Below are positions 15,752 through 57,826 of a stretch of 64,000 nucleotides of DNA, piece after piece. The notes beneath the pieces were generated by a model, which was given only the letters and a program-made list of their open reading frames with translations, was not told the DNA's origin and ran no database searches. The DNA comes from Synechococcus sp. Nb3U1 (GTDB taxonomy: Bacteria > Cyanobacteriota > Cyanobacteriia > Thermostichales > Thermostichaceae), in the NCBI RefSeq assembly GCF_021533835.1, contig NZ_JAKFYQ010000001.1, positions 1,522,079 through 1,586,078 on the forward strand, written 5' to 3'. A program made the translations under genes and the position numbers. Position 1 is the first letter of the stretch, and each line of letters begins with the position of its first letter.

Positions 15752-15769
15752 ATGGGATCGGGATCCCAT
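15752..15769. repeat. GGGATC-type inverted repeat after ispH
   Basis: ATGGGATC and GATCCCAT face each other around GG, forming an 18-bp palindrome 30 bp after the ispH stop. It is one of several GGGATCCC-derived hairpins at gene ends. No T-run follows directly, so termination is unproven. Confidence 0.5.
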
Positions 15770-28462: not shown

Positions 28463-30387
28463 GCCTTCGTCTCCTCTAAGGTTTTTGTTGCCCATATGGG
28501 CTGTAACCCCAACCGGGTCATCACCCACCGCAGCTTCACCCACAACACCACCGTCACACCCGTCAGCAACCCTCCCAGCCAATCCATCGGAGTGCCCAAA
28601 TAGCGTACCTGGATCTGATGTGCTCCGGGCGGGATCTGCACCTGCAGCTGCCCTAACCCCGTGCGTTCTGCCGGTCTCAGGCGGCCATCCATCTCTACCC
28701 ACCAAGCGGGGTAATAAAAGGTACGCAACACTACAATTTGGTCTCTATCGGTGGGGTTGACGGCTCGAAAACGACGATAGCCATAGCTCCAACGCTCCAC
28801 CTGTAAATCGGCTTCAGAGGGTTGCCCCTGCTCCCCATTGGTTAGAGAGTCCCCGAGGTTGCCTTGCCAACGCACCAGCGGATCCACAGTCGGAGGGGGC
28901 ATCGGGAAGGTGACCCCATGGGCGCGATATTCCGGCACATCCACCAAAGCCAGCCCATCCGGAAAAATCCAGTGCCAGTACAAGAAAGGGGTACCCGGTC
29001 GTTGCTGTGGCTCAATCGGGAATTGCTTGGCCGCCGAGAGGGTGTGAAAGGTTTGGATCACCTGGGGCTGAAAGCTCGTGCGGCCCAAGACCTGCCACCC
29101 TAGCCCCACCTGGATCATGACCGCCAAAGCTGTTCCCAAAAGGATTAGATACCGCCAGCTTTTGCGGTTCCAACCCCATCCCGCCAGGGATCCCAGCAGC
29201 CAGGGCACCGTTACGGTGGTAATCCCCATCCAACGCCAGGAAAACTGGATCCGCTGCAACGGCAAAACCCAGTCGTAGACCCAACTGAGCAAATCCGTCA
29301 TCATCAGCAGGGCCACCAAACTAGCCCCAAGGCTATAGAGCAAAACTTCTCCGGGCAGCAATGGGGATGGACATGGAGAGGGGGATCCCAGCCCAGCAGC
29401 CTCTTTGTGGGAAGCTACCCGGTTCACCCCCCAACGGCCCAGCAGCAGGATAATACTACGCATCGCTTGCACGATTGCAGCCCCAGCGACCACCGCTACC
29501 ATCCAGTTCCAGTACCCCAACAGGCCACTCTCGAACCAGTGATCGGTCAGGAGCGGTTGCAGACGGGTAAGGCCGCTCACCATCAGGCGAGATTGCGGAA
29601 AATAGTCTTCGGCAAAATTAACCGCATCCACCTGAATCAGGCGCTGATCCAGGAACGCAGGCACCAAAAAAAAGGCTGACCACCCCAGCCCCAACCCCAA
29701 CCCTAAATAGGAGCGTCCCAACTTCGGCCAGAGGGGATCCCGCCAGCGCAACACCCAGGGCAACGGCAGCACGATCAGAGTCAACAGCAGCAGCATCGGC
29801 AAATGGGAGAGCACCAACAGGCCATAACTGAGGGCCAAGGCCCAGATCGGCCCAATCAACCCCGGTTGGCACAACACCTGCACCAAAGCCCAGAAAATCC
29901 AGGGCAACAGAGCAATCGCCCACACTTCGCCGATGGCTCCCCGCTGATAGATATCCACCAGCCAATAGGGACCAGCCATACCCATCAAAGCCAAAATCAG
30001 GGCCAGAGGGCGGGGCGCGATGGTTTGGATCAGAGCGTAGAGTCCGGATCCCATCACCAACAGAGCCAAGCCCATACTGGCCACCAGCGAAGCAGGCATC
30101 TCCAACCCCAGGATGCGGAAGGGCAGAGTCGCCACCATGCACAGGGGTGGGTAGAAAGCAAAGGTAGCATTGCCAAAGCCGAAGTTGGAAAATTCCAGCC
30201 AGCGGGGGTAGAATTGCCCCCCGAAAAATTGCCGCTGATATTGAAAGGCCCAACTGAGATTAAACTGAGTCGAATGGGTGCTGGGATACCCCTGTTGTAC
30301 CATCGGCCAGAGCAGCAGAATCATCCCTGCCAGCACCCCAGACCCAACCAGCCAGAAGAACCCAACCTGACGCAGAACCTTCACCAT
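28456..30387 (-). CDS. PTPS-related-domain polytopic membrane protein
   Basis: This 643-aa protein has about 11-12 membrane helices and then a C-terminal periplasmic-like beta domain of about 170 residues. It resembles the group annotated as 6-pyruvoyl-tetrahydropterin-synthase-related membrane proteins, which look like GT-C glycosyltransferases or YfhO. Visible features include GQFYPRWLEFSNFGFGNATFAFYPP near the N-terminus and the tail YYPAWWVEMDGR, typical of YfhO-like proteins. A role in transferring a lipid-linked sugar is possible but unproven. It is the first gene of the minus-strand cluster and overlaps the alpha-E gene by 7 bp. Confidence 0.8.
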   Translation of the reverse strand: MVKVLRQVGFFWLVGSGVLAGMILLLWPMVQQGYPSTHSTQFNLSWAFQYQRQFFGGQFYPRWLEFSNFGFGNATFAFYPPLCMVATLPFRILGLEMPASLVASMGLALLVMGSGLYALIQTIAPRPLALILALMGMAGPYWLVDIYQRGAIGEVWAIALLPWIFWALVQVLCQPGLIGPIWALALSYGLLVLSHLPMLLLLTLIVLPLPWVLRWRDPLWPKLGRSYLGLGLGLGWSAFFLVPAFLDQRLIQVDAVNFAEDYFPQSRLMVSGLTRLQPLLTDHWFESGLLGYWNWMVAVVAGAAIVQAMRSIILLLGRWGVNRVASHKEAAGLGSPSPCPSPLLPGEVLLYSLGASLVALLMMTDLLSWVYDWVLPLQRIQFSWRWMGITTVTVPWLLGSLAGWGWNRKSWRYLILLGTALAVMIQVGLGWQVLGRTSFQPQVIQTFHTLSAAKQFPIEPQQRPGTPFLYWHWIFPDGLALVDVPEYRAHGVTFPMPPPTVDPLVRWQGNLGDSLTNGEQGQPSEADLQVERWSYGYRRFRAVNPTDRDQIVVLRTFYYPAWWVEMDGRLRPAERTGLGQLQVQIPPGAHQIQVRYLGTPMDWLGGLLTGVTVVLWVKLRWVMTRLGLQPIWATKTLEETKAC

Positions 30388-30483
30388 GAGCGCTTCCCAT
30401 CACCCCAAAGTATGGGATCCCTGCTTTTAAAACCCTCTCGAATCTTAAGTTCCAAAGTAGTGCTGGCCATTGAGCTGTCGGAA

Positions 30484-30503
30484 GGATGTTATAGGATGTT
30501 ACT
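30484..30503. repeat. Tandem 2 x 10 bp repeat
   Basis: GGATGTTATA is followed directly by GGATGTTACT, in the spacer between the PTPS-related gene and the moaC stop. Confidence 0.55.
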
Positions 30504-30533
30504 TGCCGAACAATCCGATACCTCCCTCACAGC

Positions 30534-31064
30534 CTAAGTTCCAGAGCTTACCGTCGGACTTGCTTCTGCCTCAAAGGATCCAGACTTGCCACCGTATTTG
30601 CGCAGCAGGCGAATGTTTTCGATCACCATCGTCTTTTCCAGGGCTTTGGTCATGTCATAGAGAGTGAGCGCAGCCACAGAAACCGCCGTCAGGGCCTCCA
30701 TTTCCACCCCGGTTTGGGCGCTGGTTTTGACAGTGGCAGTGATGAGAAACCCCGGCAGATGGGGATCCGAATCCAGATCAACACGGACACTGCTGAGGGG
30801 CAAGGTATGACAGAGGGGGATCAGCTCGGCAGTGCGCTTGGCAGCCATGATCCCTGCCAGCCGAGCCGTTTCCACTACGTTACCCTTCGGCCCCTGCCCC
30901 GCCAGAATAGCTTGCAGGGTAGTTTCCGCCATGCGTACCTGACCTTGGGCGGTAGCCAGACGAGTGGTCACGGATTTTCCCGCAATATCCACCATGCGCA
31001 CTTGCCCAGATTCATCCAGGTGGGTGAGGGGTGAGCCGGGCTCGTAGGGTGGATCGGGCTGCAC
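30534..31064 (-). CDS. moaC: Cyclic pyranopterin monophosphate synthase
   Basis: MoaC converts the MoaA product into cyclic pyranopterin monophosphate in molybdenum cofactor synthesis, needed for nitrate reductase. The 176-aa protein carries the family motifs [24 protein letters not shown] and [24 protein letters not shown], with DMTKALEK at the C-terminal end. The start is GTG at 31064; the sequence [15 protein letters not shown] aligns with the usual N-terminus. No other moa or moe gene is visible. A tic20-like gene lies just upstream on the same strand. Confidence 0.95.
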
Positions 31065-31105
31065 GACAGAAGCCTCCCGCCAAGATTGGGTACCGGAGCA
31101 CCGAT

Positions 31106-31597
31106 TCAGTAGCGAATCCAGGCGTAGGCGGCATCCGAAAGAACAGGCACCTCAGCGTAGTGGCTGCGAATATTTTGCACCCAAGCGTAAACCGTGACGG
31201 CGATCACCCCCAACAGAGCCGTGGTTGCCAAAACTCCCATCACTACCCCAAGGCCGAAGCTGCCAAACAACATGCCCAGCATCTGCATCAGCAACTGCAC
31301 CAGAAACAAGACGATATTCAGCAGCAGAGCTTGAATAGTATTGAAACGGACGAAATGGGCCACGCGGGTATTGCGGATAACCAGGAACAGCAGCGCAAAG
31401 AATACCCCCATGCCCAACCAGCCAGTAGCAAAGGGCACCAAACGAAACAAAGGGGCAAAAATCGGGATCAAGGCCGGTACCGAGTTAAACAGACCCGAAG
31501 GCACAAAGCCCAAGGGTAGAGCCGATACCAAAGGCAACAGGTAGGGAAGGGATCCCCACAGCCGATTGATGGGAGTAATTTCGCCGCGCCAGGTCAT
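31106..31597 (-). CDS. Tic20-family membrane protein
   Basis: This 163-aa protein has four hydrophobic helices with the Tic20 pattern: an N-terminal [19 protein letters not shown], then a middle motif [18 protein letters not shown]. In plants Tic20 is a chloroplast protein import channel; the cyanobacterial ancestor has no established role. The ATG at 31597 is preferred to the in-frame TTG at 31606. It is divergent from a hypothetical gene at 31877 and upstream of moaC. Confidence 0.85.
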
Positions 31598-31828
31598 ATC
31601 CGTCAATCCCCTTGGATATAGTGATCTTGCCAGCTCGCCTGTCGGCTCTAATAGCCGCTCGTTTGCTCAGCCCAAGAGACTCTTCACAGTCGAAGCCTTG
31701 GGGACATTCTAGTCGATGGATTTTCATCGGCTCAACGCGCTTGGGCGCAAGCTTGGCTGCTGCTTCTGGGTTCGAGAGACATTCTGGGAAAAATGTTCAG
31801 AATGAGCGTTCCACTGGATGCGGATTGG

Positions 31829-31834
31829 TATAAT
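31829..31834 (+). promoter_or_regulatory. Consensus -10 box (TATAAT)
   Basis: A perfect TATAAT lies 42 bp before the ATG at 31877, giving an expected leader of about 35 nt. No good -35 hexamer is visible at 17 bp; TTCCAC is 14 bp upstream. The 270-bp divergent spacer holds no other gene that I can support. Confidence 0.5.
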
Positions 31835-31876
31835 TAGCGGCAACTTCTGACAGTACAGGGTTTTTGGGCTTCCACC

Positions 31877-32344
31877 ATGAACATCTCATCGTCTCCTGCT
31901 GCTCGCGTTGTCGGATCTTTCCTCTGGCAAGCTTGGTCTGGGTTGATTGGCTTTTTGAATGATCGGTTGTTGCCGGAGCGCTTTCATGTGCAGCCTGAGG
32001 CATTGCCGCAGTGGGTTGCCCGAGTGTGGGCCCATTACCTTCGCTATCGAGAAGCATCTCGCCCAGGCGCAGTCCAGTTTCGCGGTTTGGCGGTGGATCC
32101 CAGCCAAGTTCAGGATCCCCATTCGGTTCGCCTCGGATCCCGTCCGGTGTACTACCGCGGTTGCCCCATCGAGACAGTGGCCTATTCCGGCGAGCCGACT
32201 TCGGTGAGCTCCATGGAAAAAGCTTTTGTGCCACCCTACTGGCAGCTGCTCAACACGCTGCGCTTGAAGTTAAACTTAGCGGATATGGATTGCTATCAGG
32301 TCACCCCAGAGCTGCAGCGGGTGTATCGGGGTCGGGAGTTCTGA
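31877..32344 (+). CDS. Hypothetical protein
   Basis: This 155-aa protein has no signal peptide or clear membrane segment. It contains VHYLRYREA-like aromatic helices (AHYLRYREASRPGAVQF) and a C-terminal VTPELQRVYRGREF. I do not recognise the family. Support for it being real comes from the consensus TATAAT box 42 bp upstream and the strong hairpin-plus-T-run terminator just after the stop. GGGATCCC motifs occur inside, as in neighbouring true genes. Confidence 0.7.
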   Translation: MNISSSPAARVVGSFLWQAWSGLIGFLNDRLLPERFHVQPEALPQWVARVWAHYLRYREASRPGAVQFRGLAVDPSQVQDPHSVRLGSRPVYYRGCPIETVAYSGEPTSVSSMEKAFVPPYWQLLNTLRLKLNLADMDCYQVTPELQRVYRGREF

Positions 32345-32368
32345 TGCACAAGTGAGTTTGTGGTGTAG

Positions 32369-32401
32369 GGGATCCCGCCGGTGGGCTGGGATCCCTTTTT
32401 T
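32369..32401 (+). terminator. Intrinsic terminator built from two GGGATCCC octamers
   Basis: GGGATCCC at 32369-32376 and again at 32388-32395 can pair with each other across an 11-nt loop. TTTTTT follows at 32396-32401. It lies 25 bp after the stop of the hypothetical gene. This is a textbook rho-independent structure made from the genome's abundant octamer. Confidence 0.75.
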
Positions 32402-32430
32402 GTACCCTCAGGCCAGCCTTGGGATGGAGG

Positions 32431-32979
32431 CTAGAGGCTGGCGCACTGATCTTCTTTGCTGCCGGCACTGTTGTTGCCGCCGGTGGGGGCCGGAGTGTTT
32501 TCTTTGCACTGCAGGTTCTCGCGGATCTGGTTGTTAGCGAGGGCGAGGCCACCGCGATTTTTCACCGCTTGTAGGTTCCCCTCCACGTCGTTGGCGGTGG
32601 CACTAAGGGCGCCCCGATTGTCTTCAAATTGCAGATCCCCATCGATCGTGACCGACAGGATGGAGGCGGATCCCCCCTGCTTGATTTGAATGTTGCCTCC
32701 GACGCGGGAGTTGCTGGTGGTGACGGCTGCGGCTCCTTCTGCTTGGATGTTCCCCTCGACACGGACGCCGGAGGCTTGTAGGGTGGCGCCCCGTCCGACT
32801 TTGATGTTGCCCTGGATCACCGTGCCATTGAGGTTGCAACTGGCCCCATCCGGCACGATTAGGTTATCGACGGTGGAGTTGCCCACAGCACCGGTACAGC
32901 GAAAATCGTCGGCATGGGCCGCCGGGATCCCGCTCAGCAGCAGCAAGGTGGTCATCGCCAAAATTTGAGGTTTCATCAT
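32431..32979 (-). CDS. Secreted beta-helix (polymer-like) protein
   Basis: This 182-aa protein has a clear signal peptide (MMKPQILAMTTLLLLSG, cleaved near HADD). The mature part has short repeats of about 20 residues with the pattern V.GN.Q...N.G, such as VRVEGNIQAEG, SRVGGNIQIKQGG and NDVEGNLQAVKNRGG, so a parallel beta-helix is expected. It somewhat resembles bactofilin-like or DUF3060-type domains. Two Cys near each end may pair. Function is unknown; an extracellular or periplasmic structural role is a guess. An AGGAGC site precedes the ATG. Confidence 0.8.
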   Translation of the reverse strand: MMKPQILAMTTLLLLSGIPAAHADDFRCTGAVGNSTVDNLIVPDGASCNLNGTVIQGNIKVGRGATLQASGVRVEGNIQAEGAAAVTTSNSRVGGNIQIKQGGSASILSVTIDGDLQFEDNRGALSATANDVEGNLQAVKNRGGLALANNQIRENLQCKENTPAPTGGNNSAGSKEDQCASL

Positions 32980-33250
32980 AAGCTCCTAAAAAAGGGGGAG
33001 GCTTGCTCCGTTCTTCATCTTCTGAAGTTTCGGCAAAGAGGAATAGGCGAGAACGATCCAACTCCTGTTCTGCTTCTGGTCAGTTTGGGCGGGGCTAGTG
33101 GCGGCGGAATCTGCGCTCAAGGGTCTGGTCTGGGGGATCCCACGGGAGTGGGGAAAAAAATGAGAAAGATTGCAAAAAAACTTAAGGCCATTTTCCCGTT
33201 ATGGGATAAGACCCCCTACAGTAGATAAAGACTGATTATTGAGATGTGTT

Positions 33251-34273
33251 ATGTCGAAAAGCGGCGTGCTCCTGCTGAACTTGGGGGGGCCAGAGACCCA
33301 GGCGGATGTGCAGCCCTTTCTCTATAACCTGTTCGCCGATCCGGAGCTGATCCGTCTGCCGTTTCCCTTTTTGCAGCGAGCCTTTGCCTGGGCTATCTCC
33401 ACGTTGCGAGCGGAAAAATCTCGGCGCAATTACGCGGCCATTGGGGGGGGATCCCCGTTGCGACGCATCACGGCCGAACAAGCGCAGGAGCTACAGGCCC
33501 ATCTGGTGGCGGAAGGGTTTGATGTGCCGGTGTATGTGGCGATGCGCTACTGGCATCCCTTGACAGAATCGGTGGTGCAGCAGATCAAGTCGGATGGGAT
33601 CACCCGCTTAGTGGTGCTGCCCCTTTACCCGCAGTATTCCATCAGCACAACGGGGTCTAGCTTTAAGCTGTTGGAGCGGCTTTGGGCTGAGGATCCGGAA
33701 TTGGCGCGCATCGAACGGCACCAGATCTGTTCTTGGTATGACCAGCCAGACTATGTGCAGGCGATGGCGGCGGGGATCCGTGCCGGGTTGGATCAGTTTG
33801 AACGCCCCCAAGAGGTGCATGTGCTGTTTAGTGCCCACGGCATTCCGGAAAGTTATGTGACTGAGGCCGGGGATCCCTACCAACAGGAGATGGAAGCCTG
33901 TGTGCAGTTGATTTGGGAGCAGGTGGGACGCGCCAATGATCACACCCTTTCCTACCAAAGCCGGGTGGGCTCGGTGAAATGGCTGCATCCCTACACCGAA
34001 ACGGTGATTTCCGAGTTGGGATCCCGTGGGGTGAAGCATCTGTTGGTGGTGCCGATTAGCTTTGTCTCGGAGCATATCGAGACCCTGCAAGAAATCGATA
34101 TTGAGTATCGGGAGTTGGCCCATCACTTTGGGATCCCAGATTTTCGGCGTGTTCCTGCTCTGAATGCTAATCCGCAGTTTATTGCCGGCCTAGTGGCGCT
34201 GGTTCGGCCTCATTTATTCACGCCCGGCTTGGCTTCCACTGCTTTTGCCCCAGCGACGACGCTTCAATCTTAG
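33251..34273 (+). CDS. hemH: Ferrochelatase, without C-terminal CAB domain
   Basis: HemH inserts Fe2+ into protoporphyrin IX to make haem, at the membrane surface. The 340-aa protein has the family start [21 protein letters not shown], the catalytic His in [11 protein letters not shown] and the Glu in [14 protein letters not shown]. Most cyanobacterial ferrochelatases have an added linker and a CAB (chlorophyll-binding, LHC-like) helix at the C-terminus. Here the protein stops soon after the core ([10 protein letters not shown]) and no CAB helix follows in any frame nearby. The ATG at 33251 is preferred to an upstream TTG. Confidence 0.95.
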
Positions 34274-34389
34274 GTTGGACTTGGGGGCAATGAAGCTCAT
34301 CCCACCCAACTAACGCGAAGAAGTGGGGTAGCGATAATGTTCTACATCCCATCTTATATCTGTTATATCTGGCAGAGGGCTAATCCGGC

Positions 34390-35481
34390 GTGGAGTTGCT
34401 CAGAAATTGGATCCCCCACTCCAAGCGTCGGCGTTGGTTGCGAATGTGGGTGGGTTGGCGACGGCGAGTGCGGCGGTATTGGTGGAGCAGTAGTGGGGAT
34501 TGGCGTTGGCTGGGGGAAAAACCCATTCCTGTGGCTAGTTTGAATCGCCTGATCTGGAGAGATTCGGTTCCTTCCCTCAGTTTTTTTGTCATGCTCAGCC
34601 TGTCGGGCATCATTTCTACCCTGGGTTTGTTGGCAGGCAGTACGGCAGTGGTGATCGGGGCTATGATCATCGCGCCTTTGATGGGCCCCATTTTGGGGAT
34701 GGCCTATGCTGTGGCTGTGGCCAATCGTCGATTATTGAAACGAGCTACCCTAACGCTATTGATCGGCAGCTTAACCACCGTGCTCAGTGCCATCCTGATT
34801 TGCCAAGTTGCTGGCTTGCGGGACTTGAACGATGAGATCCGGATGCGCACTCAACCAACGTTGCTGGATCTGGGGGTAGCTCTGGGGGCAGGAGCGGCGG
34901 GGGCCTTTGCCAAATCCCGTAAGTCAGTAGCAGATGCTTTTCCAGGGGTAGCGATCGCGGTGGCTCTGATTCCGCCCTTGAGTGTGATGGGTATAGGGTT
35001 GGCCCTTGCAGATGGGGAAACGTTGGGGGGTTCCTCTTTGTTGTTTATCACCAATCTGGCGGGCATTATTTTCAGCGGGATCCTCACTTTTCTCTGGCAG
35101 CGTTATGGATCCTTAGAACGGGCGCAGGGGGGGATTGCCTTCGTGGGAATGGTGATAGGGTTGATCGGGATCCCGTTGGGGATTTCGCTGCGCAATTTAC
35201 TTTTGCAGTCCAATACCCGTCAGCAGGTGCGAGAGCTGTTGGAAAACCAATTGGATCCCTTTGAAAAGGCTCACTTGCGCTCCTTGCGAGTGAGGCAACG
35301 GCGACAGGGGCTGGAAGTGGATATCGAAATCTCTGCCCCCCCTCAACAAATTACTGAAGCCGATTTACAAACGGTACAAAATTTTTTGCAGGATACCCTG
35401 GGACAACCTGTGGTGCTGCAGGTGAGTTTGATTCCGATACAGCAATTTCAACTGTCCACAGATCTGGAGGGGCACCCTTAA
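34390..35481 (+). CDS. DUF389-family (TIGR00341-like) membrane protein
   Basis: This 363-aa protein has a very basic N-terminus and about six membrane helices. The DUF389 motif GSTAVVIGAMIIAPLMGPILGMAYA is clear, as is the second-half FPGVAIAVALIPPLSVMGIGLA. A C-terminal soluble domain (about 270-363) is alpha/beta. Function is unknown. The start codon is GTG. The 3' end overlaps convergent gcvT by 4 bp. Confidence 0.85.
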   Translation: MELLRNWIPHSKRRRWLRMWVGWRRRVRRYWWSSSGDWRWLGEKPIPVASLNRLIWRDSVPSLSFFVMLSLSGIISTLGLLAGSTAVVIGAMIIAPLMGPILGMAYAVAVANRRLLKRATLTLLIGSLTTVLSAILICQVAGLRDLNDEIRMRTQPTLLDLGVALGAGAAGAFAKSRKSVADAFPGVAIAVALIPPLSVMGIGLALADGETLGGSSLLFITNLAGIIFSGILTFLWQRYGSLERAQGGIAFVGMVIGLIGIPLGISLRNLLLQSNTRQQVRELLENQLDPFEKAHLRSLRVRQRRQGLEVDIEISAPPQQITEADLQTVQNFLQDTLGQPVVLQVSLIPIQQFQLSTDLEGHP

Positions 35482-36596
35482 GCCTGGGTGCGATAAAAGG
35501 GTCGCTTCACCACTTCGGCGGGCCAGCGCTGCCCGCGAATCTCAATTTCCAGCCGGGATCCCACCTTGGCCCAATCGGGGTCGACATATCCCAGGCCAAT
35601 GCCATAGCCCAAGCTCGGTGAATGGGTGCCACTGGTCACTCGGCCAATCGGATCTGAGCTTCCAGCGGCCCAAATGGCATAGCCAGTGCGGGGGATCGCC
35701 CGTTCCAACAGGCGAAAACCCACCAGACGGCGCGGGATCCCCTGGTTGCGTTGGGTTTCTAGAGCCGCTTTGCCGATGTAATCGCCCGGATTGTTCACCA
35801 ACCAGGTCAGGCCCGCTTCCAGAGGAGTCGTGGTTTCGTCCATATCCTGCCCATAGAGGTGCAAGGCCGCCTCCAACCGCAAGCTATCCCGGCAGCCCAA
35901 GCCACAGGGTTGCACGCCTGCTTGGATCAAGTGTTCCCAAAGGCGGATGCCATCGCCGAGGCTGAGCATCACTTCAAAACCGTCTTCGCCGGTATAACCC
36001 GTGCGGGCCACAAAGATCGCCTCTCCCGAAAACCCTTCTCCGCCGGTAAATTGCCCATGCTGAAAACGCCCCAACCCCGCCAGGGATCCCTGTAAAAAGG
36101 GTTGTAAGGTGGCTTCAGCCTCTCGCCCCTGCACTGCTAACAACACCTGAGCAGAGGAGTAATCCCGCAACTGCACGCCAGGGATCCCACTCAGATGCTG
36201 GTGGAGCCAGTCCCAATCCTTCTGGCAGGTGGCGGCGTTGACGATCACGCTCCAGTGCTCCACTTCACCCTCTGGCGGATGTTTGTAGACGATGACATCA
36301 TCCAGGATGCCCCCCTGCGGGTTGAGCAACACGGTGTAGCGCCCGCATCCTACGGGTAAGGGGCTGAGATCGGTGGGCAACAAGCGGTTGAGATGGGATC
36401 CCAGTTCTGGCCCCCACAGGGTGAACTTGCCCATGTGGGAAATATCAAACACCCCCACCTTCTCCCGCACGGCCTGATGCTCCGCCACCACCCCCTGATA
36501 CTGCACTGGCATTTCCCATCCGGAGAAGGGCACAAAACGAGCCCCCAAAGCCTGATGGTGGGCAAATAAAGGAGTGCGCTGCAGGGTTGGGCTCAT
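35478..36596 (-). CDS. gcvT: Aminomethyltransferase, T-protein of glycine cleavage
   Basis: GcvT transfers the methylene group from aminomethyl-lipoyl-H-protein to tetrahydrofolate. It is part of glycine cleavage, important for photorespiration. The 372-aa protein carries the family motifs [51 protein letters not shown] and [19 protein letters not shown] chose the ATG at 36596 ([10 protein letters not shown]) over the frame's further start. No gcvH or gcvP is in the window. It is divergent from gloA with a 79-bp gap. Confidence 0.95.
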
Positions 36597-36675
36597 GACT
36601 ATGAAGGGATCCCGAAAGGGCAAGGACTACAATAAACTCAAAACTCACCGTCGCATCTCTTTAGGAGCCAGTACC

Positions 36676-37107
36676 ATGCGTCTTCTCCACACCATGATCC
36701 GCGTTGGCAACTTGGAGCGATCCCTGCAATTCTATTGCGAGGTTTTGGGGATGCGCCTGCTGCGCAAGAAAGATTACCCAACGGGGGAATTCACCCTGGC
36801 CTTCGTAGGCTATGGAGATGAATCGGAAACGGCGGTTATTGAATTGACCCACAACTGGGGCACCCACCGCTACGACCTGGGCAATGGCTACGGTCACATC
36901 GCCCTAGGCGTAGAGGATATCTACGGCACCTGCGAGGCCATCAAAGCCCGTGGCGGCAAGGTGGTGCGGGAACCCGGCCCGATGAAACACGGCAGCACCG
37001 TGATTGCCTTTGTCGAGGATCCGGATGGCTACAAAATCGAGCTAATCCAGACCCAATCTTTGGCTGCTGAACCGGAAAAAGTGGCTGTGGCGGGCAGTGC
37101 CGCCTAA
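36676..37107 (+). CDS. gloA: Lactoylglutathione lyase (glyoxalase I)
   Basis: GloA isomerises the hemithioacetal of methylglyoxal and glutathione to lactoylglutathione. The 143-aa protein has the metal ligand His5 ([10 protein letters not shown]), a Glu in [10 protein letters not shown], His in GYGHIALGV and Glu in KIELIQ, matching the Ni/Zn site. ATG is preceded by AGGAG. Glutathione is supplied by gshB at 53.8 kb. The C-terminal tail ([11 protein letters not shown]) is extra. It converges on the TonB-like gene. Confidence 0.95.
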
Positions 37108-37133
37108 CTGAAATCCGCCGGGGATCCCCAGCC

Positions 37134-38240
37134 TTAATTGGTGGATCCCCCCACGGTCAACTGACCCAGCACGTTGATATCAAAGGTGAAGTTGATGGTG
37201 ACTGAGTTGCCTTCGTAAGCCTCGGGCAACGGCAGATAAGGGGCTGCTCTCTGAATCGCTGCCAGGGCCGCATCGTCGGTTTGTTGGCTGCCGGAGGTGC
37301 GACCCAAGCGTACGTTCTGCAAATCTCCGGCCCGACCGACCGTGAAGATCACCACCGTGCGGCGGGAGGTTCCAGTCTGCCCAGGGATCCAGTTTTGCTC
37401 CACCTTCCGCTGCAGAGCCGCTAGCCAGGGGCCCCAGTCCACATTGGCGCGTGCGGCCACGCTGGGGGGATTGGGGGCCGATTGGGTGGGGTTGGCCAGT
37501 CCACTGGCTCCACTGCCTTGAATACCCGCACCGTCACTGGGAGCAGAGGCACTGACCGGGGGGCCCAGTTGGGAAGAGTCGGAGGGGCGCTGGGCAGGAG
37601 GTGCTTCTGGCAAGGGCTGTGGAGCAGGTTCAACGGGAGCCAATTGACTTAAGTCTGAAACCCGCTCGCTCGGCTGAACCGGCAAAGGTTCGGCGGTGGG
37701 GGGAGGAGTAGGGGGCGGAGTTGCAGGAGGAGCTGCCGCCACAGGAGGCGGAGTCGGCGTTGAGGTAGGTTGAGGGGGTGCTGGAGTGGGGGTCGGTGTT
37801 GGGGTGGGAGGTGGCGTGGGCGTGGGTGTGGGCGTTGCAATCGCCACTTCAGCCGGTGCGGGCGGGGGTGGAACGGGGGCGGGTTGCTCCAGTTGCGGGG
37901 GCTGCGGCTGCGGGGGTGGCGGGGCAGGGGCTTCTTGGGGCGGAGCAGCTTGGGACTGGGGCGGGCTGCCTTGGGAAGGAGGGGCTTCTGTGCGCTCACC
38001 CCCATCGCGGGAATCCACATCGGAAACCAGCTCGGTCTCATCCGGCGGCTCGAGATCTTCCGGATCCAGCAGAATAAACTCGATGGCTTCTTGTTCTGGC
38101 TCCCGGATCAACCAGAGACGGCCCAAATAAAGAAATCCCAGCAGCAGCAGAATGTGCAACAGCAGAGACAGCGCCACCATCCAAAAAAAGTTGCGAGATT
38201 CATCCTCGCGGCGGCGTTGTTCAACCAAAGTGCTGGTCAT
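37134..38240 (-). CDS. TonB-family energy transducer
   Basis: This 368-aa protein has one N-terminal membrane anchor (about 18-44), a long Pro-rich periplasmic spacer (about 85-200, with many PTPTP and PPPP runs), and a C-terminal TonB domain (about 268-365) with NWIPGQTGTSRRTVVIFTV and TDDAALAAIQRAAPYLPLP. TonB passes inner-membrane energy to outer-membrane transporters. ExbB, ExbD and a receptor are not in the window. The spacer is unusually long. Its opposite strand carries G-runs able to form a G-quadruplex. Confidence 0.88.
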   Translation of the reverse strand: MTSTLVEQRRREDESRNFFWMVALSLLLHILLLLGFLYLGRLWLIREPEQEAIEFILLDPEDLEPPDETELVSDVDSRDGGERTEAPPSQGSPPQSQAAPPQEAPAPPPPQPQPPQLEQPAPVPPPPAPAEVAIATPTPTPTPPPTPTPTPTPAPPQPTSTPTPPPVAAAPPATPPPTPPPTAEPLPVQPSERVSDLSQLAPVEPAPQPLPEAPPAQRPSDSSQLGPPVSASAPSDGAGIQGSGASGLANPTQSAPNPPSVAARANVDWGPWLAALQRKVEQNWIPGQTGTSRRTVVIFTVGRAGDLQNVRLGRTSGSQQTDDAALAAIQRAAPYLPLPEAYEGNSVTINFTFDINVLGQLTVGGSTN

Positions 38241-38526
38241 GGCCAGGGTTGCCCTCTTGTGTTCTCAGCTCTCTCAACACACCGAGTTGTCCTATCGAAT
38301 ACTTCGAATACTCGGCCACACTAGAGTGTTATAACATCCTGCCGGTTTTGGCCCCTGCGCAAAGGCGTATTGTCCATCTCGGGCTTGGGAAGGGATCCCT
38401 CGGTGCAATACTTCCCCCAAGATCGCCTACCCTAGGAAAGCAGGGATCCGAGTTGATCAATCCATAATTATCGACTAATGAAATGAAATAAACTGAATTC
38501 CCTGATGTGCTGGTTTGGAGCACCCT

Positions 38527-38961
38527 ATGGAACCGATCCGCTTTCATCTTGCCTTTCCGGTGACAGACATTCCCCTCGCCAAAACCTATTACGGCGAGGG
38601 TTTGGGCTGTGAGATTGGGCGAGAAAGCCCTGCTTCGGTTATTCTCAACCTGTATGGGCATCAGCTGGTGGCCCACCTCACCCATGAAGAACTTACCCCG
38701 CAGCGGGGCATTTACCCACGCCACTTTGGACTGATTTTCCCAGCACAAGCGGATTGGGAGTCCTTGGCTGCTCGTGCCCAAGCGCGAGAGCTACTCTTCT
38801 ATCAGGAGCCCCGCTGGCGGTTTATTGGCTCTCCCTTGGAGCATGGCACCTTCTTTTTGCAGGATCCCTTCTACAACCTGCTGGAATTCAAATACTATCG
38901 TCATGCCTCCGCCATCTTCGGGGAGCGGGAGTTGGCCTTGATCGGGGATCGGGAGGGTTGA
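38527..38961 (+). CDS. VOC-superfamily (glyoxalase-like) protein
   Basis: This 144-aa protein has the vicinal-oxygen-chelate fold pattern: HLAFPVTDIPLAKTYYGEGLG, then HLTHEE and FFLQDPFYNLLEFKYYR. The substrate is unknown; the family ranges from dioxygenases to resistance proteins. The ATG at 38527 is chosen over an in-frame TTG at 38515. The Tab2-like gene begins 3 bp after its stop, so the two are probably co-translated. The 286-bp upstream spacer has palindromes and a tandem 9-bp repeat. Confidence 0.85.
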   Translation: MEPIRFHLAFPVTDIPLAKTYYGEGLGCEIGRESPASVILNLYGHQLVAHLTHEELTPQRGIYPRHFGLIFPAQADWESLAARAQARELLFYQEPRWRFIGSPLEHGTFFLQDPFYNLLEFKYYRHASAIFGERELALIGDREG

Positions 38962-38964
38962 TTC

Positions 38965-39819
38965 TTGGCACAGGAAACTCGGTTGGCAGTCTCCGGGCGC
39001 GGCCCCATTTGGCAGATGGACTTTACAGCCGTTCCGTTACGGGATGAGCAGGATCGGCGGGTCTGGGAGCTTTTGGTGTGTGATCCCCTGGGTCAGTTTC
39101 GCAAAGCGCAGTATTGCAGCAACCAAGAGGTGAACAGTACCTGGGTGGCGCAACAGTTGCAAAACTGTGTGGAGGCCGCCCCCCAGCCTCCTTCCGCCAT
39201 TCGTGTGTTTCGGGCCCGCATGAGTTCCATCTTGCAGCGAGCCTGCGATCTGGTCGGGATCCCGATGCTGCCCAGCCGGCGCGTCTACACCCTCAATGCC
39301 TGGATACGGGAGCGGGCGGAACAGGTGTATCCCTATGAGGCGCAGTTTACCTATAGCCCCGAATCCCCAGTAGAGCCGGAGCTGCCGGATCCCACCCGCC
39401 TACCCGACAAATTACAAGGAGAACGCTGGGCCTTGGTCACTTTACGAGCGGCAGATTTACAAGAGGCGGAGAGCTGGCCCACAGAATTTGGGGAGCTGTT
39501 CCCCGTTGCGTGGTCAAGCTTACCCGCTGACACGATCATCCCTGGTCTGGTGATCACCACGCAACGGGCTTTGCCGATGGCAGCTTGGATGACCGGGATC
39601 GAACCGGCCTACCTCAGCGTTGTTCAAGAGCAACTGATTTTGGAGGCGGGCTTGAATGATCGCTACCTATTTGCATCCCTAAAAGCGGAAAAATTGCGGG
39701 CAGAAGCAGAAGGCTTTGCCAAACGCCAACACCTGGCCCAAGGGATCCATTTCTTGGCCATTCAAACGGATCTGAAGGCCCAATCTTTTGCAGGCTTCTG
39801 GCTGATGCAACACCCCTAG
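38965..39819 (+). CDS. Tab2/Atab2-like RNA-binding protein (DUF1092)
   Basis: This 284-aa protein matches the Tab2 family, which in algae and plants is needed for translation of photosystem I (psaB) mRNA. The N-terminal WQMDFTAVPLRDEQDRRVWELLVCD and the C-terminal IHFLAIQTDLKAQSFAGFWLMQ are family features. The start is a TTG at 38965, 3 bp after the VOC stop. It is cytoplasmic. Its 3' end overlaps the convergent DUF423 gene by 4 bp. A PSI role here is inferred from plant homologues. Confidence 0.88.
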   Translation: MAQETRLAVSGRGPIWQMDFTAVPLRDEQDRRVWELLVCDPLGQFRKAQYCSNQEVNSTWVAQQLQNCVEAAPQPPSAIRVFRARMSSILQRACDLVGIPMLPSRRVYTLNAWIRERAEQVYPYEAQFTYSPESPVEPELPDPTRLPDKLQGERWALVTLRAADLQEAESWPTEFGELFPVAWSSLPADTIIPGLVITTQRALPMAAWMTGIEPAYLSVVQEQLILEAGLNDRYLFASLKAEKLRAEAEGFAKRQHLAQGIHFLAIQTDLKAQSFAGFWLMQHP

Positions 39820-40187
39820 GATAGGGAGCGGGCCGATAGAGCCAAACAAGCCCACCCGATCAGAAAGGCTACCCCACCTACAGGTGTAATTGCCCCCAGC
39901 CAGCGGATCCCTGTAAATGCCAGGGCGTAGAGGCTGCCGGAAAACAACAGCACCCCCAGCCCAAAGGCCCACCCTGCCGCCCACAAGACGGCTGAACTTG
40001 GCACCCGCACCAACAGCAAGGCTACCAGGCCCAGAGCTAGGGCATGAACCATCTGGTAGCGCACTGCCGTTTCCAACAGATGCAGGGATCCCTCGCTGAG
40101 CTGGGTTCGTAAAGCATGAGCGGCAAAGGCCCCCATGCCCACCCCCAATCCCCCCAACAGACCCGCTAGGGCCAGAAAAATTCCCAT
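39816..40187 (-). CDS. DUF423-family small membrane protein
   Basis: This 123-aa protein has four hydrophobic helices. The DUF423 signature is clear: GAFAAHALRTQLSEGSLHLLETAVRYQMVHALAL at about residues 20-53, then ITPVGGVAFLIGWACLAL. Function is unknown. The ATG is preceded by AGGAGC. It converges with the Tab2-like gene, with a 4-bp overlap. Confidence 0.9.
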   Translation of the reverse strand: MGIFLALAGLLGGLGVGMGAFAAHALRTQLSEGSLHLLETAVRYQMVHALALGLVALLLVRVPSSAVLWAAGWAFGLGVLLFSGSLYALAFTGIRWLGAITPVGGVAFLIGWACLALSARSLS

Positions 40188-40325
40188 TCTTTTGCTCCTC
40201 GATCGTCTTTTCTAGCTTCGCTGCACCATCACGGTTTTGGGCGAAATTTGCCTCGTCTGTCGGCTCTGTTGCTCCAAGGGCAAGGCCAACAGTTACAGTG
40301 AAGACGGAATGGGTGTGGATTGCAG

Positions 40326-41051
40326 GTGGCACAACGGTCTGGCAAAAGGTTTCCCTTGGGGATGCTGCTCTTCTGGGCTGGAATCCTGTTTGGATGGCCG
40401 GTTTGGGCCACCTCGTCGGCAGCAGCGAACGAAGATGGGGATCCCGTACCCACCACGCTCTCCGCTGCCATAGATTTAGGCTTGGATAGCCAAATTTTAG
40501 AAGATAGCCCCGTGTTGCGTCGCTGGTTGCAAAACCCGCCTAACCTTCTGGAAGAAATCCGCAACACGCCCGTTCTACCCACCCGCTTGCAGGCCAATTT
40601 CGAGTCTTCCTCCCACTGGCGAGTCAGCCTTCAAGATCTGCGCCTAGTGGATCGCCTCACCCTGAGCGGTGATTATCGACAATCGGCGGATGAGCCAAAA
40701 GACCGCCAGTACGGATCAGAAATCCGCTACTTTATAGCCCCGATGGGATCCGTCTTCAACCTGGCGCCCCAACTGGGCTATCGGGTCTTGAAACAAGAGA
40801 ATCGCAGCCTCAGTGGAGTTAGCTACGGGGCCTTTGCCGTTTTGGCTTTGGCTCCGGGGGCCGCAGATTTGACCGGCAGCTACAGTTGGGTTGCGCCACA
40901 AGAACCAGAAGAAGGACAAGCCACCTTGGCAGAGATCACCGCTGCCTATGCTATTAGCCCTTCCTTTCGTCTTTCTGCTCGCTACAGCCTGCGCAACTCA
41001 ACCTTGACTCGGGAATCTAGCCTGGGTTTGGGGGTGGAATGGATCCCTTAG
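40326..41051 (+). CDS. Exported, probably outer-membrane-associated hypothetical protein
   Basis: This protein of about 241 aa has a signal peptide: a basic SGKRFPLG, the hydrophobic MLLFWAGILFGWPVW, then ATSSAA. The mature part has alternating polar/hydrophobic beta strands, such as FRLSARYSLRNSTL near the C-terminus, typical of a small beta-barrel, and it ends with LGLGVEWIP. I cannot name a family. The start is uncertain: TTG 40320, GTG 40326 or ATG 40362; GTG keeps the basic N-region. Confidence 0.65.
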   Translation: MAQRSGKRFPLGMLLFWAGILFGWPVWATSSAAANEDGDPVPTTLSAAIDLGLDSQILEDSPVLRRWLQNPPNLLEEIRNTPVLPTRLQANFESSSHWRVSLQDLRLVDRLTLSGDYRQSADEPKDRQYGSEIRYFIAPMGSVFNLAPQLGYRVLKQENRSLSGVSYGAFAVLALAPGAADLTGSYSWVAPQEPEEGQATLAEITAAYAISPSFRLSARYSLRNSTLTRESSLGLGVEWIP

Positions 41052-41118
41052 GCCTTCTACTGAGACACCTAATACAGGCTATATAGGCTTAGACTACAGA
41101 CACCCTTATGTGTCGGCT

Positions 41119-41802
41119 GTGTGTGGGCGATTTAGCTTAGCGGTGGAGCCGCAAGTGCTGATGCAGCATTTCGATCTGCATATGGATACAGAAGAGGCCG
41201 GGATCCTGCCATTGGCCCCCCGCTACAACATCGCCCCTTCTCAGCCCCTATTGGCGGTGGTGGCCTCGCAGTCGACCAAACCGGGATCCCTTCAACGCAA
41301 GGCAACTCATTTTCGCTGGGGTTTGGTGCCCGCTTGGAGCAAGACGTTTAAGGGGGGATGGATCAATGCCCGCTCCGAAACGGCAGCGGAGAAACCCTCC
41401 TTCAGAGCGGCGCGGCGGCGGCGGTGTTGTTTGATCCCAGCGGATGGCTTTTACGAGTGGACGGGATCCGGCAAAGCCAAACAACCCTACTGGATTCATC
41501 TGCAGGAAAGGACTCCGTCCCGCCAACTACCTGTGTTTGCCTTTGCAGGCATTTGGGAACGGTGGCAGGGGCCGGAAGGGACTGTGGTCGATACCTGCGC
41601 CATCCTCAACACCACCGCCAACCCGCTGATGCAGGTTCTACATGAGCGTATGCCCGTGATTTTGCCCCCAGAAACCTATGACATCTGGCTGGATCCGAAC
41701 CTCCAGGATCCCAAGCGGGTTGTACCGTTGTTGCGTCCCTATCCCCCGGAGGCGATGGTGGCCTATCCTGTCAGCACCCATGTGAATCCCCCCCCGCCAT
41801 GA
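41119..41802 (+). CDS. SRAP-domain (YedK/HMCES) abasic-site protease/DNA cross-linker
   Basis: SRAP proteins cross-link to abasic sites in single-stranded DNA through Cys2. The 227-aa protein has the Asn in INARSETAAEKPSF, Glu in PADGFYEW and His in LHERMPVIL, the three other active residues. The start must leave Cys at position 2. GTG at 41119 gives MCGRFS exactly, so I prefer it over GTG 41110 (MSAVCGRF). After Met removal Cys2 becomes the nucleophile. It converges on dprA. Confidence 0.92.
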   Translation: MCGRFSLAVEPQVLMQHFDLHMDTEEAGILPLAPRYNIAPSQPLLAVVASQSTKPGSLQRKATHFRWGLVPAWSKTFKGGWINARSETAAEKPSFRAARRRRCCLIPADGFYEWTGSGKAKQPYWIHLQERTPSRQLPVFAFAGIWERWQGPEGTVVDTCAILNTTANPLMQVLHERMPVILPPETYDIWLDPNLQDPKRVVPLLRPYPPEAMVAYPVSTHVNPPPP

Positions 41803-41859
41803 CGATCCCGCCTGTCGAGAGCCGGTCGGAGAGCCGATCACGGTTTTGTCGCTGCCTTC

Positions 41860-43041
41860 TTAGGGGGTACGGCGATAGCACATTCCCGGCAGTTGTACCA
41901 GCCAACCCTCCAGCTCCATCATCAGCAAGGTACTGGAGAGGGTGGTGATCTCCATCTGGGTGGCCTGGGCCAGAGCATCGATGCCCATGGGTTCGGATCC
42001 CAAAATTTGCCAAAGAAGCTGTTGATCCGGATCGGTAGGGCCAGCTTTGGCCTGGATATTCCCGGAGCCAGGGGCTCCTGAGTCTGCCGTTTCCCGAGGG
42101 GATCCCTGAACCAACCGTAAATCCTCCAACAAGCTCTCAATCCCTAAAATCATGCCCGCACCCTTGCGGATCAGGTTCAGACAGCCGCGGGCCGCCGCCG
42201 TATCGATGTTGCCCGGCAGCGCATACACCTCCCGCCCGTAGTCGTTGGCCAAGTAGGCGGTGATCAGGGCTCCGGAACGCTCCGGGGCTTCCATGACCAG
42301 TGTGGCGCAACATAAGCCGGCGATGATGCGGTTGCGCTGCGGAAAATGTTCTTTGGCAGGGGGCGTACCCGGAGGATATTCGCTGAGGATCGCCCCTTGC
42401 GCTTGAATGCGCTGGTGTAACTGCCGGTGTTGAGCGGGATACACCATCTCTGGGCCAGTCCCCACCACAGCCACTGTCTTTCCGCCGGCCTCCAAACAGG
42501 CTTGGTGAGCCACACCGTCAATCCCAGCCGCCAACCCGGATACCACTACACATCCGGCTTCGGCCAGGGCAGCGCTAATCTGCTTTGTCCAATGGCGCCC
42601 ATAGGCAGTGGGGGCACGGGTACCAACGATCCCAAGCGCGGGCTGTTGTTCCCAGGTGGGGCAATCTCCCAGCACGTAAAGAATCGGCGGCGGATCCGGC
42701 AATTCCCACAGCAAGGGCGGATAGCCGGGATCAGCGGGGGTTAAGAAGGGGATCCCGGGCTTCAGGGTTTGCTCCAAGACTTGTTCCGGGATCAGTTGGC
42801 AACGGGCGGCTTGGATCGACTGGGCCAGTGCGGGGCCGATTCCCTCTACCTGTTGCAAGGCCGGTTCATCCGCTTCCCAGGCCCGTTGTAAAGACCCAAA
42901 ACACTCCAGCAGCCGCTTCAGACGGTGGGGGCCAATCCCCTTCACCTGTGCCCAGGCCAACCAATAGGGCTGTTCCTGGGCTGTACGGCGCAGAGAGCCA
43001 TCCAGGGGATCGAAAGGGCCGGGTGGGAAAGGGACAGACAA
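41860..43041 (-). CDS. dprA: DNA-processing protein DprA
   Basis: DprA loads RecA onto incoming single-stranded DNA during natural transformation. The 393-aa protein has an N-terminal helix-hairpin-helix/SAM-like region (KGIGPHRLKRLLECFG) and the Rossmann core: GIVGTRAPTAYG, VSGLAAGIDGVAHQACL, PQRNRIIAGL and PERSGALITA. A winged-helix domain ends the protein (about 325-393). The start is TTG at 43041 with AGGA upstream. It lies beside the AT-rich gene-poor spacer. Confidence 0.94.
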   Translation of the reverse strand: MSVPFPPGPFDPLDGSLRRTAQEQPYWLAWAQVKGIGPHRLKRLLECFGSLQRAWEADEPALQQVEGIGPALAQSIQAARCQLIPEQVLEQTLKPGIPFLTPADPGYPPLLWELPDPPPILYVLGDCPTWEQQPALGIVGTRAPTAYGRHWTKQISAALAEAGCVVVSGLAAGIDGVAHQACLEAGGKTVAVVGTGPEMVYPAQHRQLHQRIQAQGAILSEYPPGTPPAKEHFPQRNRIIAGLCCATLVMEAPERSGALITAYLANDYGREVYALPGNIDTAAARGCLNLIRKGAGMILGIESLLEDLRLVQGSPRETADSGAPGSGNIQAKAGPTDPDQQLLWQILGSEPMGIDALAQATQMEITTLSSTLLMMELEGWLVQLPGMCYRRTP

Positions 43042-44773: not shown

Positions 44774-44805
44774 TCCTGTCCCCTGTCGGAGATGATGCTG
44801 TAGCT

Positions 44806-45399
44806 ATGTTGAAAAACGACCGTTGGATCTGTGAGCAAGCTCGGCAAGGGATGATCGAGCCGTTCCAACCGGAATTGGTGCGCACCGTAAACCTGACAGG
44901 AGAGACCCGCCCGGTATTGAGCTATGGTCTTTCCTCCTACGGCTATGACATTCGCCTTTCGCCGGTGGAGTTCAAGATCTTCCGCCACATCCCCGGCACC
45001 ATCGTGGATCCGAAGCGGTTTAACCCCAAAAATCTAGAGTCGGTGGATCTACACCACGACGCTGAGGGGGACTACTTTATCATTCCCGCTCACTCCTACG
45101 GCTTGGGGGTAGCGCTAGAGCGGCTACAAATCCCCGACAACATCACCGTCATCTGTATCGGCAAGTCTTCCTACGCCAGAGTGGGGCTAATTGCCAACCT
45201 CACCCCTGCAGAAGCGGGGTGGCGGGGCTATTTAACGCTGGAATTTTCCAATGCCTCCAGTGCTGATTGCCGGGTATATGCCAACGAAGGGGTGGTGCAG
45301 TTGCTCTTTTTGGAAGGGGAGCCCTGTGAAGTGACCTATGCCGATCGAGTGGGCAAGTATCAGGATCAACCCCAACAGGTGGTGGTGGCCAGAGTTTGA
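44806..45399 (+). CDS. dcd: dCTP deaminase
   Basis: Dcd deaminates dCTP to dUTP for thymidylate synthesis. The 197-aa protein has GYDIRLSP, the active-site GKSSYARVGLI, and AEAGWRGYLTLEFSN with the catalytic Glu. The C-terminus YADRVGKYQDQ closes over the substrate. Length matches the family. It probably shares a transcript with the BtuR-like gene. Downstream lie a 231-bp spacer and TIR element copy 3 before queA. Confidence 0.95.
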   Translation: MLKNDRWICEQARQGMIEPFQPELVRTVNLTGETRPVLSYGLSSYGYDIRLSPVEFKIFRHIPGTIVDPKRFNPKNLESVDLHHDAEGDYFIIPAHSYGLGVALERLQIPDNITVICIGKSSYARVGLIANLTPAEAGWRGYLTLEFSNASSADCRVYANEGVVQLLFLEGEPCEVTYADRVGKYQDQPQQVVVARV

Positions 45400-45609: not shown

Positions 45610-45630
45610 TTTTGATTTAATTTTATTTCT

Positions 45631-46779
45631 ATGTCCGATTCCCCTTCGCAAGCCAGCGAGCTCCATCCTGATCTGCTCACTGCTGCCTACGATTACACAC
45701 TTCCCTCTGAACGCATCGCCCAAACTCCTGTTGAGCCTAGGGATCAGGCGCGCATGTTGGTGGTGCGGAGAAGCCGCCATGAGCATCGGCGGTTTTGCGA
45801 TCTGCCCCATTCTTTGCGGCCGGGAGATTTGCTGGTTCTGAACGATACGAAGGTCATACCCGCACGCTTGTTTGGCACAAGGCTGCCTCGAGACCGGGAT
45901 CCCCAAGCCGGGATCCCGGCAGCTACGCCCAAGGTGGAGGTTTTGCTACTAGAACCCATTCAGACAGGAATCCCGGAATGTATCTGGCGGGTTTTGGTAA
46001 AACCGGGCAAACGGGTCAAGGTGGGGGATCGGATCCAATTTTGGGATCCCCAGGGCTCCACCATGCCCTATCGACTGGAAGCCACGATTCAAGCCCTGGA
46101 TGCGAGCACGGGTGGGCGCATCCTCCAATTTGAGTGGGCAGGAGCGGCTGTATTTGAAACGGTCTTGGAGCAGGTGGGGCAGATCCCATTTCCGCCCTAT
46201 ATCCAGTCGAATCAAGCCCGTCCGCAGGACTACCAGACCGTGTGGGCCAGACAACCGGGATCCGTGGCGGCTCCTACTGCAGGGCTACATTTCACCCAAG
46301 AGCTATTGGATCGGTTGGCTCAAGCTGGGATCCCGACCGCCTATATCACCCTGAATATCGGGTTGGGCACCTTCCGTCCCGTCGAGGTGGAACGGGTGAC
46401 GGAACATCAGCTGCACAGTGAGTGGCTCAAGGTTCCGGCAGAAACAGTGGAGGCGATTCAGGCAACCCAAGCCCGAGGGGGGCGGATCATCGCTGTCGGG
46501 ACAACAGTGGCCCGCTCTCTGGAAACGGCGGCAAAAACGGGATCCCTGCAACCCTGGCAGGGGAACAGCGATCTTTTTATTTATCCCGGTTATACCTGGC
46601 GAGTCGTTCAGGGGCTGATCACCAATTTTCATCTGCCCCGCTCTAGTTTGATGATGTTGGTGGCGGCGCTGATCGGGCGGCAAAGACTTTTGGATTTATA
46701 TCAGGAAGCCCTGGAACAGGAGTACCGCTTCTATTCCTTTGGAGATGGGATGTTGATCTTGCCCCAAGCAGATGAATAA
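45631..46779 (+). CDS. queA: tRNA preQ1(34) S-adenosylmethionine ribosyltransferase-isomerase
   Basis: QueA adds the ribosyl part of SAM to preQ1 at tRNA position 34, making epoxyqueuosine. The 382-aa protein has family motifs DYTLPSERIAQTPVEPRDQARMLV, LNDTKVIPARLFG, SVAAPTAGLHFT and TNFHLPRSSLMMLVAAL. Length is slightly above usual because of an insert near residue 90 (DRDPQAGIPAATPK) that contains GGGATCCC-encoded residues. TIR element copy 3 lies in its leader. Confidence 0.96.
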   Translation: MSDSPSQASELHPDLLTAAYDYTLPSERIAQTPVEPRDQARMLVVRRSRHEHRRFCDLPHSLRPGDLLVLNDTKVIPARLFGTRLPRDRDPQAGIPAATPKVEVLLLEPIQTGIPECIWRVLVKPGKRVKVGDRIQFWDPQGSTMPYRLEATIQALDASTGGRILQFEWAGAAVFETVLEQVGQIPFPPYIQSNQARPQDYQTVWARQPGSVAAPTAGLHFTQELLDRLAQAGIPTAYITLNIGLGTFRPVEVERVTEHQLHSEWLKVPAETVEAIQATQARGGRIIAVGTTVARSLETAAKTGSLQPWQGNSDLFIYPGYTWRVVQGLITNFHLPRSSLMMLVAALIGRQRLLDLYQEALEQEYRFYSFGDGMLILPQADE

Positions 46780-47721: not shown

Positions 47722-47723
47722 AG

Positions 47724-50277: not shown

Positions 50278-50395
50278 AGCGCTGCTAGATAGAGCGCCGT
50301 ATATGCCAAGGCTATTGGCTTTGCTTCTAAAAGTTCATCCCTTGAGCGGGGTGCTATGGGCTGCTATTGAGATTGGCTCTTTATCGTTTCTCTGG

Positions 50396-50421
50396 GATCC
50401 CCAGCTTTGGGGGTCTTTTTT
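50396..50421 (+). terminator. Intrinsic terminator after psbK
   Basis: GATCCCC and GGGGGTC form a 7-bp stem (one G-T pair) around AGCTTT, followed by TTTTTT. It lies 118 bp after the psbK stop and before the convergent DUF3611 gene. It also uses a GGGATCCC octamer as its left arm. Confidence 0.75.
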
Positions 50422-53519: not shown

Positions 53520-53539
53520 GACGGGATCCGGATCCCGTC
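53520..53539. repeat. Perfect palindrome after bioY
   Basis: GACGGGATCC is followed directly by GGATCCCGTC, a perfect 20-bp palindrome 7 bp after the bioY stop. It is made of two overlapping GGGATCCC-type units. Confidence 0.7.
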
Positions 53540-57797: not shown

Positions 57798-57826
57798 GGG
57801 ATCCCCGATAGATGTGTAGGGATCCC
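57798..57826. repeat. Pair of TAGGGATCCC units after the dockerin gene
   Basis: GGGATCCC occurs at 57798-57805 and 57819-57826, each preceded by TA. They can pair as a hairpin around 13 nt, just after the dockerin stop. No T-run follows. Confidence 0.6.

Follow-up and report, generated by a model that had tools for sequence, protein, structure and literature searches.

Close copies of a palindromic HIP octamer as probable arms of intrinsic terminators in Synechococcus sp. Nb3U1

The window, that is the whole 64-kb stretch of DNA that was analysed, carries psbK and psaL and is therefore cyanobacterial. Near its middle a forward-strand gene (31943..32344; the open reading frame may start at 31877) faces a convergent reverse-strand gene (32431..32979). 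A Pfam search assigned the former to no family at E 0.001 and gave no family above the curated cut-off for the latter; the former was matched in all five of the same-genus genomes searched. Starting 23 bases past the stop that ends at 32344, a predicted hairpin (32368..32396, +) is built from two exact copies of the octamer GGGATCCC (32369-32376 and 32388-32395, gap 11) with an inner GCC/GGC extension. The predicted fold has an energy of −22.8 kcal/mol alone and −23.9 kcal/mol with its flanks (z −3.5), and a T6 run (32396..32401, +) adjoins the right octamer. A GC-rich transcript hairpin, as predicted by folding, a U-tract directly 3′ of the stem and a co-directional gene upstream are thus found together at this site, and the hairpin is most likely an intrinsic terminator. 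A consensus terminator scan of positions 30000-49999 returned 19 candidates as against 24 in shuffled sequence; the 32369 hairpin was not among them, presumably owing to the loop limit of 8 in that scan.

The octamer is exceptionally common. There are 92 exact copies of GGGATCCC in the 64 kb of the window compared with 2.88 expected from shuffles, and 4511 in the genome (3,487,976 bases) compared with 62 for a reversed-pattern control. Such strong genome-wide over-representation of a palindromic octamer is the mark of a HIP, and GGGATCCC has been described as the alternate HIP of two thermophilic strains, Synechococcus JA-3-3Ab and JA-2-3B, to which the genome may, judging by the octamer alone, be closely related; a cognate DNA methyltransferase has also been reported for HIP genomes (Elhai 2015, PMC4390886). 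In the window and a sample of 80 further stretches, octamer density was 1.23 per kb in genes, 2.06 in tandem intergenic, 2.67 in convergent and 1.85 in divergent DNA. We know of no function for HIPs that has been agreed upon since the 1990s.

The first-pass annotation of the window had listed five sites at gene ends as hairpins of paired octamers. Two of these, at 32369 and 57798, are indeed exact pairs, the psbK site has a single octamer, and those at 53520 and 15752 contain no pair. The claim that at least two of the sites have a T-run and resemble intrinsic terminators held for exactly two of the five, 32369 and psbK. Downstream of psbK (PF02533; 50149..50277, +) the predicted terminator (50394..50421, +) has, as had been suggested, an octamer for its left arm (50394-50401), opposite a non-octamer right arm; the hairpin (50394-50417) has a predicted energy of −14.8 kcal/mol, with T6 at 50416-50421.

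None of the other three sites has a U-tract directly 3′ of the stem. The exact pair at 57798..57826 (+; gap 13) is predicted to fold strongly (−19.0 kcal/mol), but its sequence gives no support for a role as a terminator. At 53520..53539 there is a 20-nt perfect palindrome (GACGGGATCC/GGATCCCGTC) with a GGATCC core, not two whole octamers, which lies 6 bases past the stop of a BioY-family gene. The interval separating this gene from a convergent one also contains, downstream of the palindrome, a non-HIP hairpin, AAGCCCCTTCTTGGGGCTT (53727-53750, −12.2 kcal/mol), which is followed by TCTTT and is the likelier terminator there. The element at 15752..15769, which follows a LytB-family gene, consists of one octamer and a partial copy in a weak hairpin, the predicted fold of which is no more stable than those of shuffled sequences (z −0.45), and it is probably incidental.

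The third exact pair in the window, absent from the earlier list, lies within the gene 45631-46779 (+) at 45896..45917 (octamers at 45896 and 45910) and has no T-run. A more widely spaced pair (gap 27) was also seen at 2620-2662 within the long gene 1537-5034 (+), where the surrounding 61-nt segment (2612-2672) folds with −31.3 kcal/mol.

In order to count pairs, we defined them as two exact octamers with a gap of 0-20. The window has 3 as against about 2.8 expected from its octamer density, and the genome 56 as against about 122; hence pairing itself is not in excess, and the genome-wide count rules out an excess of octamer pairs as such. The deficit arises mainly because genes avoid pairs. 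This was seen in a sample of 1.664 Mb, made up of the window and 80 stretches of 20 kb each, with gene calls from our own caller rather than from the annotation. The first 40 stretches were picked with the genome pair list already known and are pair-rich (26 pairs with the window, against 4 in the second 40), so that only pooled pair figures are used; the total of 30 compares with 26.7 expected from the genome's 56. Genes had 13 pairs against 45 expected, a depletion of about 3.5-fold, and divergent intergenic DNA (74 kb) had none against 5.4, which might mean that closely spaced pairs do harm where DNA is transcribed or acts as a promoter. Tandem intergenic DNA was not above chance (7 against 11 expected), convergent intergenic DNA showed a small excess (9 against 4.15, p 0.026), and one pair spans a border. 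Per base, convergent and tandem intergenic DNA (16 pairs in 152 kb) has about 11 times as many as coding DNA (13 in 1430 kb), in agreement with the earlier expectation that pairs would be more frequent past stop codons than inside genes. The departure from chance is in the location of the pairs and their T-runs and not in their number.

We then compared T-runs with A-runs downstream of paired cores, using the pattern GGATCC-N3-24-GGATCC with TTTTT or AAAAA no more than 6 nt downstream, in six same-genus genomes. The A5-followed pairs are a fair control because a pair of palindromes is strand-symmetric and T5 and A5 are equally common over both strands. T rows outnumbered A rows in all six genomes (36, 19, 27, 21, 25 and 23 against 8, 10, 7, 7, 12 and 9, with the genome under study first), giving 151 against 53 with overlapping rows included; as the genomes are related, these pooled counts are not independent. 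In the Nb3U1 genome alone, with one place counted once per strand, there were 28 distinct strand-specific T-sites and 8 A-sites (p 0.001). Of the T-sites, 23 follow a co-directional gene, 4 lie within genes and 1 elsewhere, whereas the corresponding figures for the A-sites are 2, 3 and 3 (Fisher p 0.005 for 23/28 against 2/8). Measured to the middle of the site, 18 of the 28 T-sites are no more than 90 nt from the end of the co-directional gene. Five exact octamer pairs have a T5 run no more than 4 nt away, compared with 0.63 expected in convergent and tandem intergenic DNA.

The T-sites also appear to be better built as hairpins. At least 120 distinct T-sites and at least 48 A-sites were found in the six genomes among the matches listed. 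Within these listed matches the inner flanking bases are paired in 94/120 T-sites and 24/48 A-sites (p 0.0006), and with C..G flanks set aside in 28/54 and 10/34, respectively (p 0.048); the loop between the cores is 15 nt or shorter in 99/120 T-sites and 25/48 A-sites, again among the matches listed. In the 1.66-Mb sample, exact 6-bp stems of any sequence showed no overall excess before T-runs compared with A-runs (226 against 233), and GGATCC was the commonest arm among them. The hexamer-pair contrast in that sample alone was only 9 T against 5 A, and single octamers beside T-runs showed no clear T-run preference.

Orthologous gene ends in the six same-genus genomes provide a further view. 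For psaB and glnA, named from NCBIfam matches above cut-offs, the hairpin recurs almost throughout. An exact octamer pair with a T-run follows psaB in five of the six genomes (−18.0 to −19.6 kcal/mol) with loops that are unlike one another, and in the sixth (G003) a non-octamer stem of equal strength is found. All six genomes have a hairpin and T-run after glnA (−17.7 to −20.4 kcal/mol), with exact octamers on both sides in three genomes and arms that are degenerate yet still pairing in the remaining three. The ends of the orthologues of the gene upstream of the 32369 hairpin are more variable. Two genomes (G000 and G002) have the exact pair, and in G004 the arms, GGGATCCT and AGGATCCC, are both off the octamer with pairing intact. 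No octamer pair was found at the orthologue ends in the other three, where G005 has an unrelated hairpin of −16.8 kcal/mol, G003 a weak one (−6.1) and G001 none that was found. Downstream of psbK, G004 has an exact pair, G000 a single octamer arm and G005 an arm containing GGATCC. The stems of G003 and G001 are non-HIP, and in G002 none was found. The stem outlasts the octamer across orthologues, which would be expected if selection acts on the hairpin; HIP stems also appear to come and go at gene ends.

We also estimated what share of terminator-like hairpins contains the HIP core. With a loose scan for a hairpin and T-run, the −12 kcal/mol class was as common in sense interiors of genes (115/716) as at convergent (53/364) or tandem (113/733) ends, and a stricter scan was therefore adopted. 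Hairpins of −12 kcal/mol or stronger with a T-run then occurred at 21/364 convergent 3′ ends compared with 35/2066 gene-interior sense windows, and at 18/733 tandem ends, little above the interiors. At thresholds of −8 and −10 kcal/mol they were not significantly commoner at convergent ends than in interiors (p 0.66 and 0.13). GGATCC is present in 11/21 of the strong convergent hairpins, 4/18 of the tandem and 5/35 of those in sense interiors (9/53 in interiors over both strands). When T was set against A at convergent ends and at co-directional tandem ends, the excess came to 25 hairpins, of which 8 contain GGATCC; as a rough estimate, with a wide error, the HIP core accounts for about one third.

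Near-identical hairpins of the form GATCCCCTGGC..GCCAGGGGATT, followed by T's, were noticed at two convergent ends in the sample (L053:3543-3568 and L105:9468-9492). They represent a second recurrent type of putative terminator, which shares part of the octamer.

Collectively, the T-run, gene-context and orthologue tests argue for recruitment of these elements as terminators. The earlier suggestion that the octamer itself was recruited for termination needs widening, however, as only 5 of the 28 T-sites in the Nb3U1 genome have exact octamers in both arms; the other arms are near-octamers with the GGATCC core in common. We therefore favour, with a probability of roughly 0.8, a reading in which 32369-32395 and its T6 run form a Rho-independent terminator, and HIP octamers and their GGATCC-core near-copies have repeatedly been recruited to form the arms of terminators, with the pairing of the arms under selection. 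As polymerase passes, the first octamer copy would pair with the second, each being its own reverse complement, and the resulting GC-rich hairpin just 5′ of the U-tract would lead to release of the transcript. The octamer probably came first, through whatever process forms HIPs, with recruitment of octamers and near-copies at gene 3′ ends, including those of psaB and glnA, as a second step, after which selection would maintain the pairing of the arms. Termination in vivo at HIP hairpins is what we infer from these sequence patterns.

Three other explanations were weighed. The hairpins might shield mRNA 3′ ends from exonucleases in the manner of REP elements rather than terminate transcription. 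The exact pair at 57798, which folds strongly with no U-tract, would fit such a role, as would the longer half-lives reported for transcripts with U-tract terminators in PCC 7002 (PMC7406221). Protection alone would not need a U-tract, however, and among the matches listed the run directly follows the trailing C's, with no base between, in 65/120 T-sites compared with 13/48 A-sites, which is the layout of a terminator; we consider protection alone unlikely. Alternatively, the octamer may be so common that some pairs land after genes and near T-runs by chance, forming hairpins with no selected role. The pair number in the window, which equals the density expectation, the genome-wide deficit of pairs and the three of five listed sites that lack a T-run all agree with this, and for 57798, 53520 and 15752 it is likely to be correct. 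For the class with T-runs it is disfavoured by the 28:8 asymmetry, the placing of 23 of the 28 at co-directional 3′ ends, the better inner pairing and the hairpins that recur at psaB and glnA while their loops differ, and as a general account it is quite improbable. Finally, the sites might serve DNA-level roles of HIPs in methylation, mismatch repair or recombination, to which the terminator look would be secondary. In favour of this, HIPs are reported to be linked with methyltransferases and with a model of mismatch repair (PMC4390886). Such roles would not, however, predict that a T-run lies downstream of the pair, that the sites are oriented with the gene before them, or that arms off the octamer still pair, and as the explanation they are very improbable.

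The proposed terminators resemble those formed by the DUS of Neisseria and the USS of Pasteurellaceae, in which nearby complementary copies of a short repeat, generally present in at least 1000 copies per genome, form the arms of intrinsic terminators (Kingsford 2007, PMC1852404; TerminatorNet 2026, PMC13020248). Here too a short genome-wide repeat supplies terminator-like arms above control expectation. DUS and USS are non-palindromic and inverted copies are needed, whereas GGGATCCC is self-complementary, so that direct copies pair; a HIP terminator would thus be an analogue of the DUS/USS type and not a member of it. To our knowledge HIP is not an uptake signal. For Neisseria, about 55% of high-confidence terminators are reported to contain the exact uptake signal, and for Pasteurellaceae 17-29% (PMC1852404), against our rough HIP-core share of about one third.

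The GC-rich hairpin and U-tract of the HIP sites are also those of canonical cyanobacterial intrinsic terminators. In S. elongatus PCC 7942 such features are reported for only 22% of the transcription units, and cyanobacteria are described as lacking Rho (Cascino 2026, PMC13289151). Word searches found no HIP1, GATCGC or 'highly iterated' in the main text of PMC13289151, and no 'terminat-', hairpin or intergenic in that of PMC4390886. Vijayan 2011 (PMC3219970) reports that polymerase peaks coincide with some HIP1 sites, and also reports intrinsic terminators, with no link drawn between the two in the part of the paper available. An RNA-decay study of PCC 7002 from 2020 (PMC7406221) describes HIP1 as always a top motif around stable transcripts and leaves this unexplained. 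The available parts of PMC3025956, PMC6331805, PMC7843447 and PMC8155712 make no HIP-terminator link, and no statement that HIPs serve as terminator arms was found in the non-subscription literature searched, to the extent of the text available.

We then asked about HIP1 itself, using the pattern GCGATCGC-N3-22-GCGATCGC with T5 or A5 no more than 2 nt downstream, in 97 sampled genomes of the class. There were 328 T rows and 73 A rows (overlapping rows included); T exceeded A in 41 genomes, A exceeded T in 5 and 7 were tied, making 53 with any match and 44 without. In one genome (G028) the 20 strand-specific T-sites comprise 13 after a co-directional gene, 5 in other intergenic DNA and 2 within genes. 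Several HIP1-pair sites are preceded by an A-run and followed by a T-run, an arrangement suited to both strands. The terminator class is thus supported by sequence comparison across the genus and, for HIP1, across the sampled cyanobacteria. A broader reading, that HIPs are a phylum-wide intrinsic-terminator kit in Rho-less cyanobacteria, with termination among the selected functions of intergenic HIPs, we regard as evenly balanced. If it is true, the HIP pairs of any lineage would become terminators when placed before a T-run, and a switch of HIP dialect would change the terminator vocabulary. A HIP-termination link would join two puzzles, the function of HIPs and the nature of cyanobacterial termination, in parallel with the uptake-sequence terminators of Neisseria; terminator predictors would gain a cyanobacterial signal, and engineers bidirectional terminators.

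Two arrangements of HIP1 pairs were seen in passing. In G028 two HIP1-pair hairpins with T-runs lie 136 nt apart (locus L166; G028:C1:4871650 and 4871786) and 329-541 nt from the nearest called genes, and they may end unannotated small or non-coding transcripts. In another genome (G008, contig C872:1487-1747) four HIP1-pair hairpins with T-runs stand in tandem with a period of about 73 nt, in what looks like a HIP1 terminator array or a repeat element.
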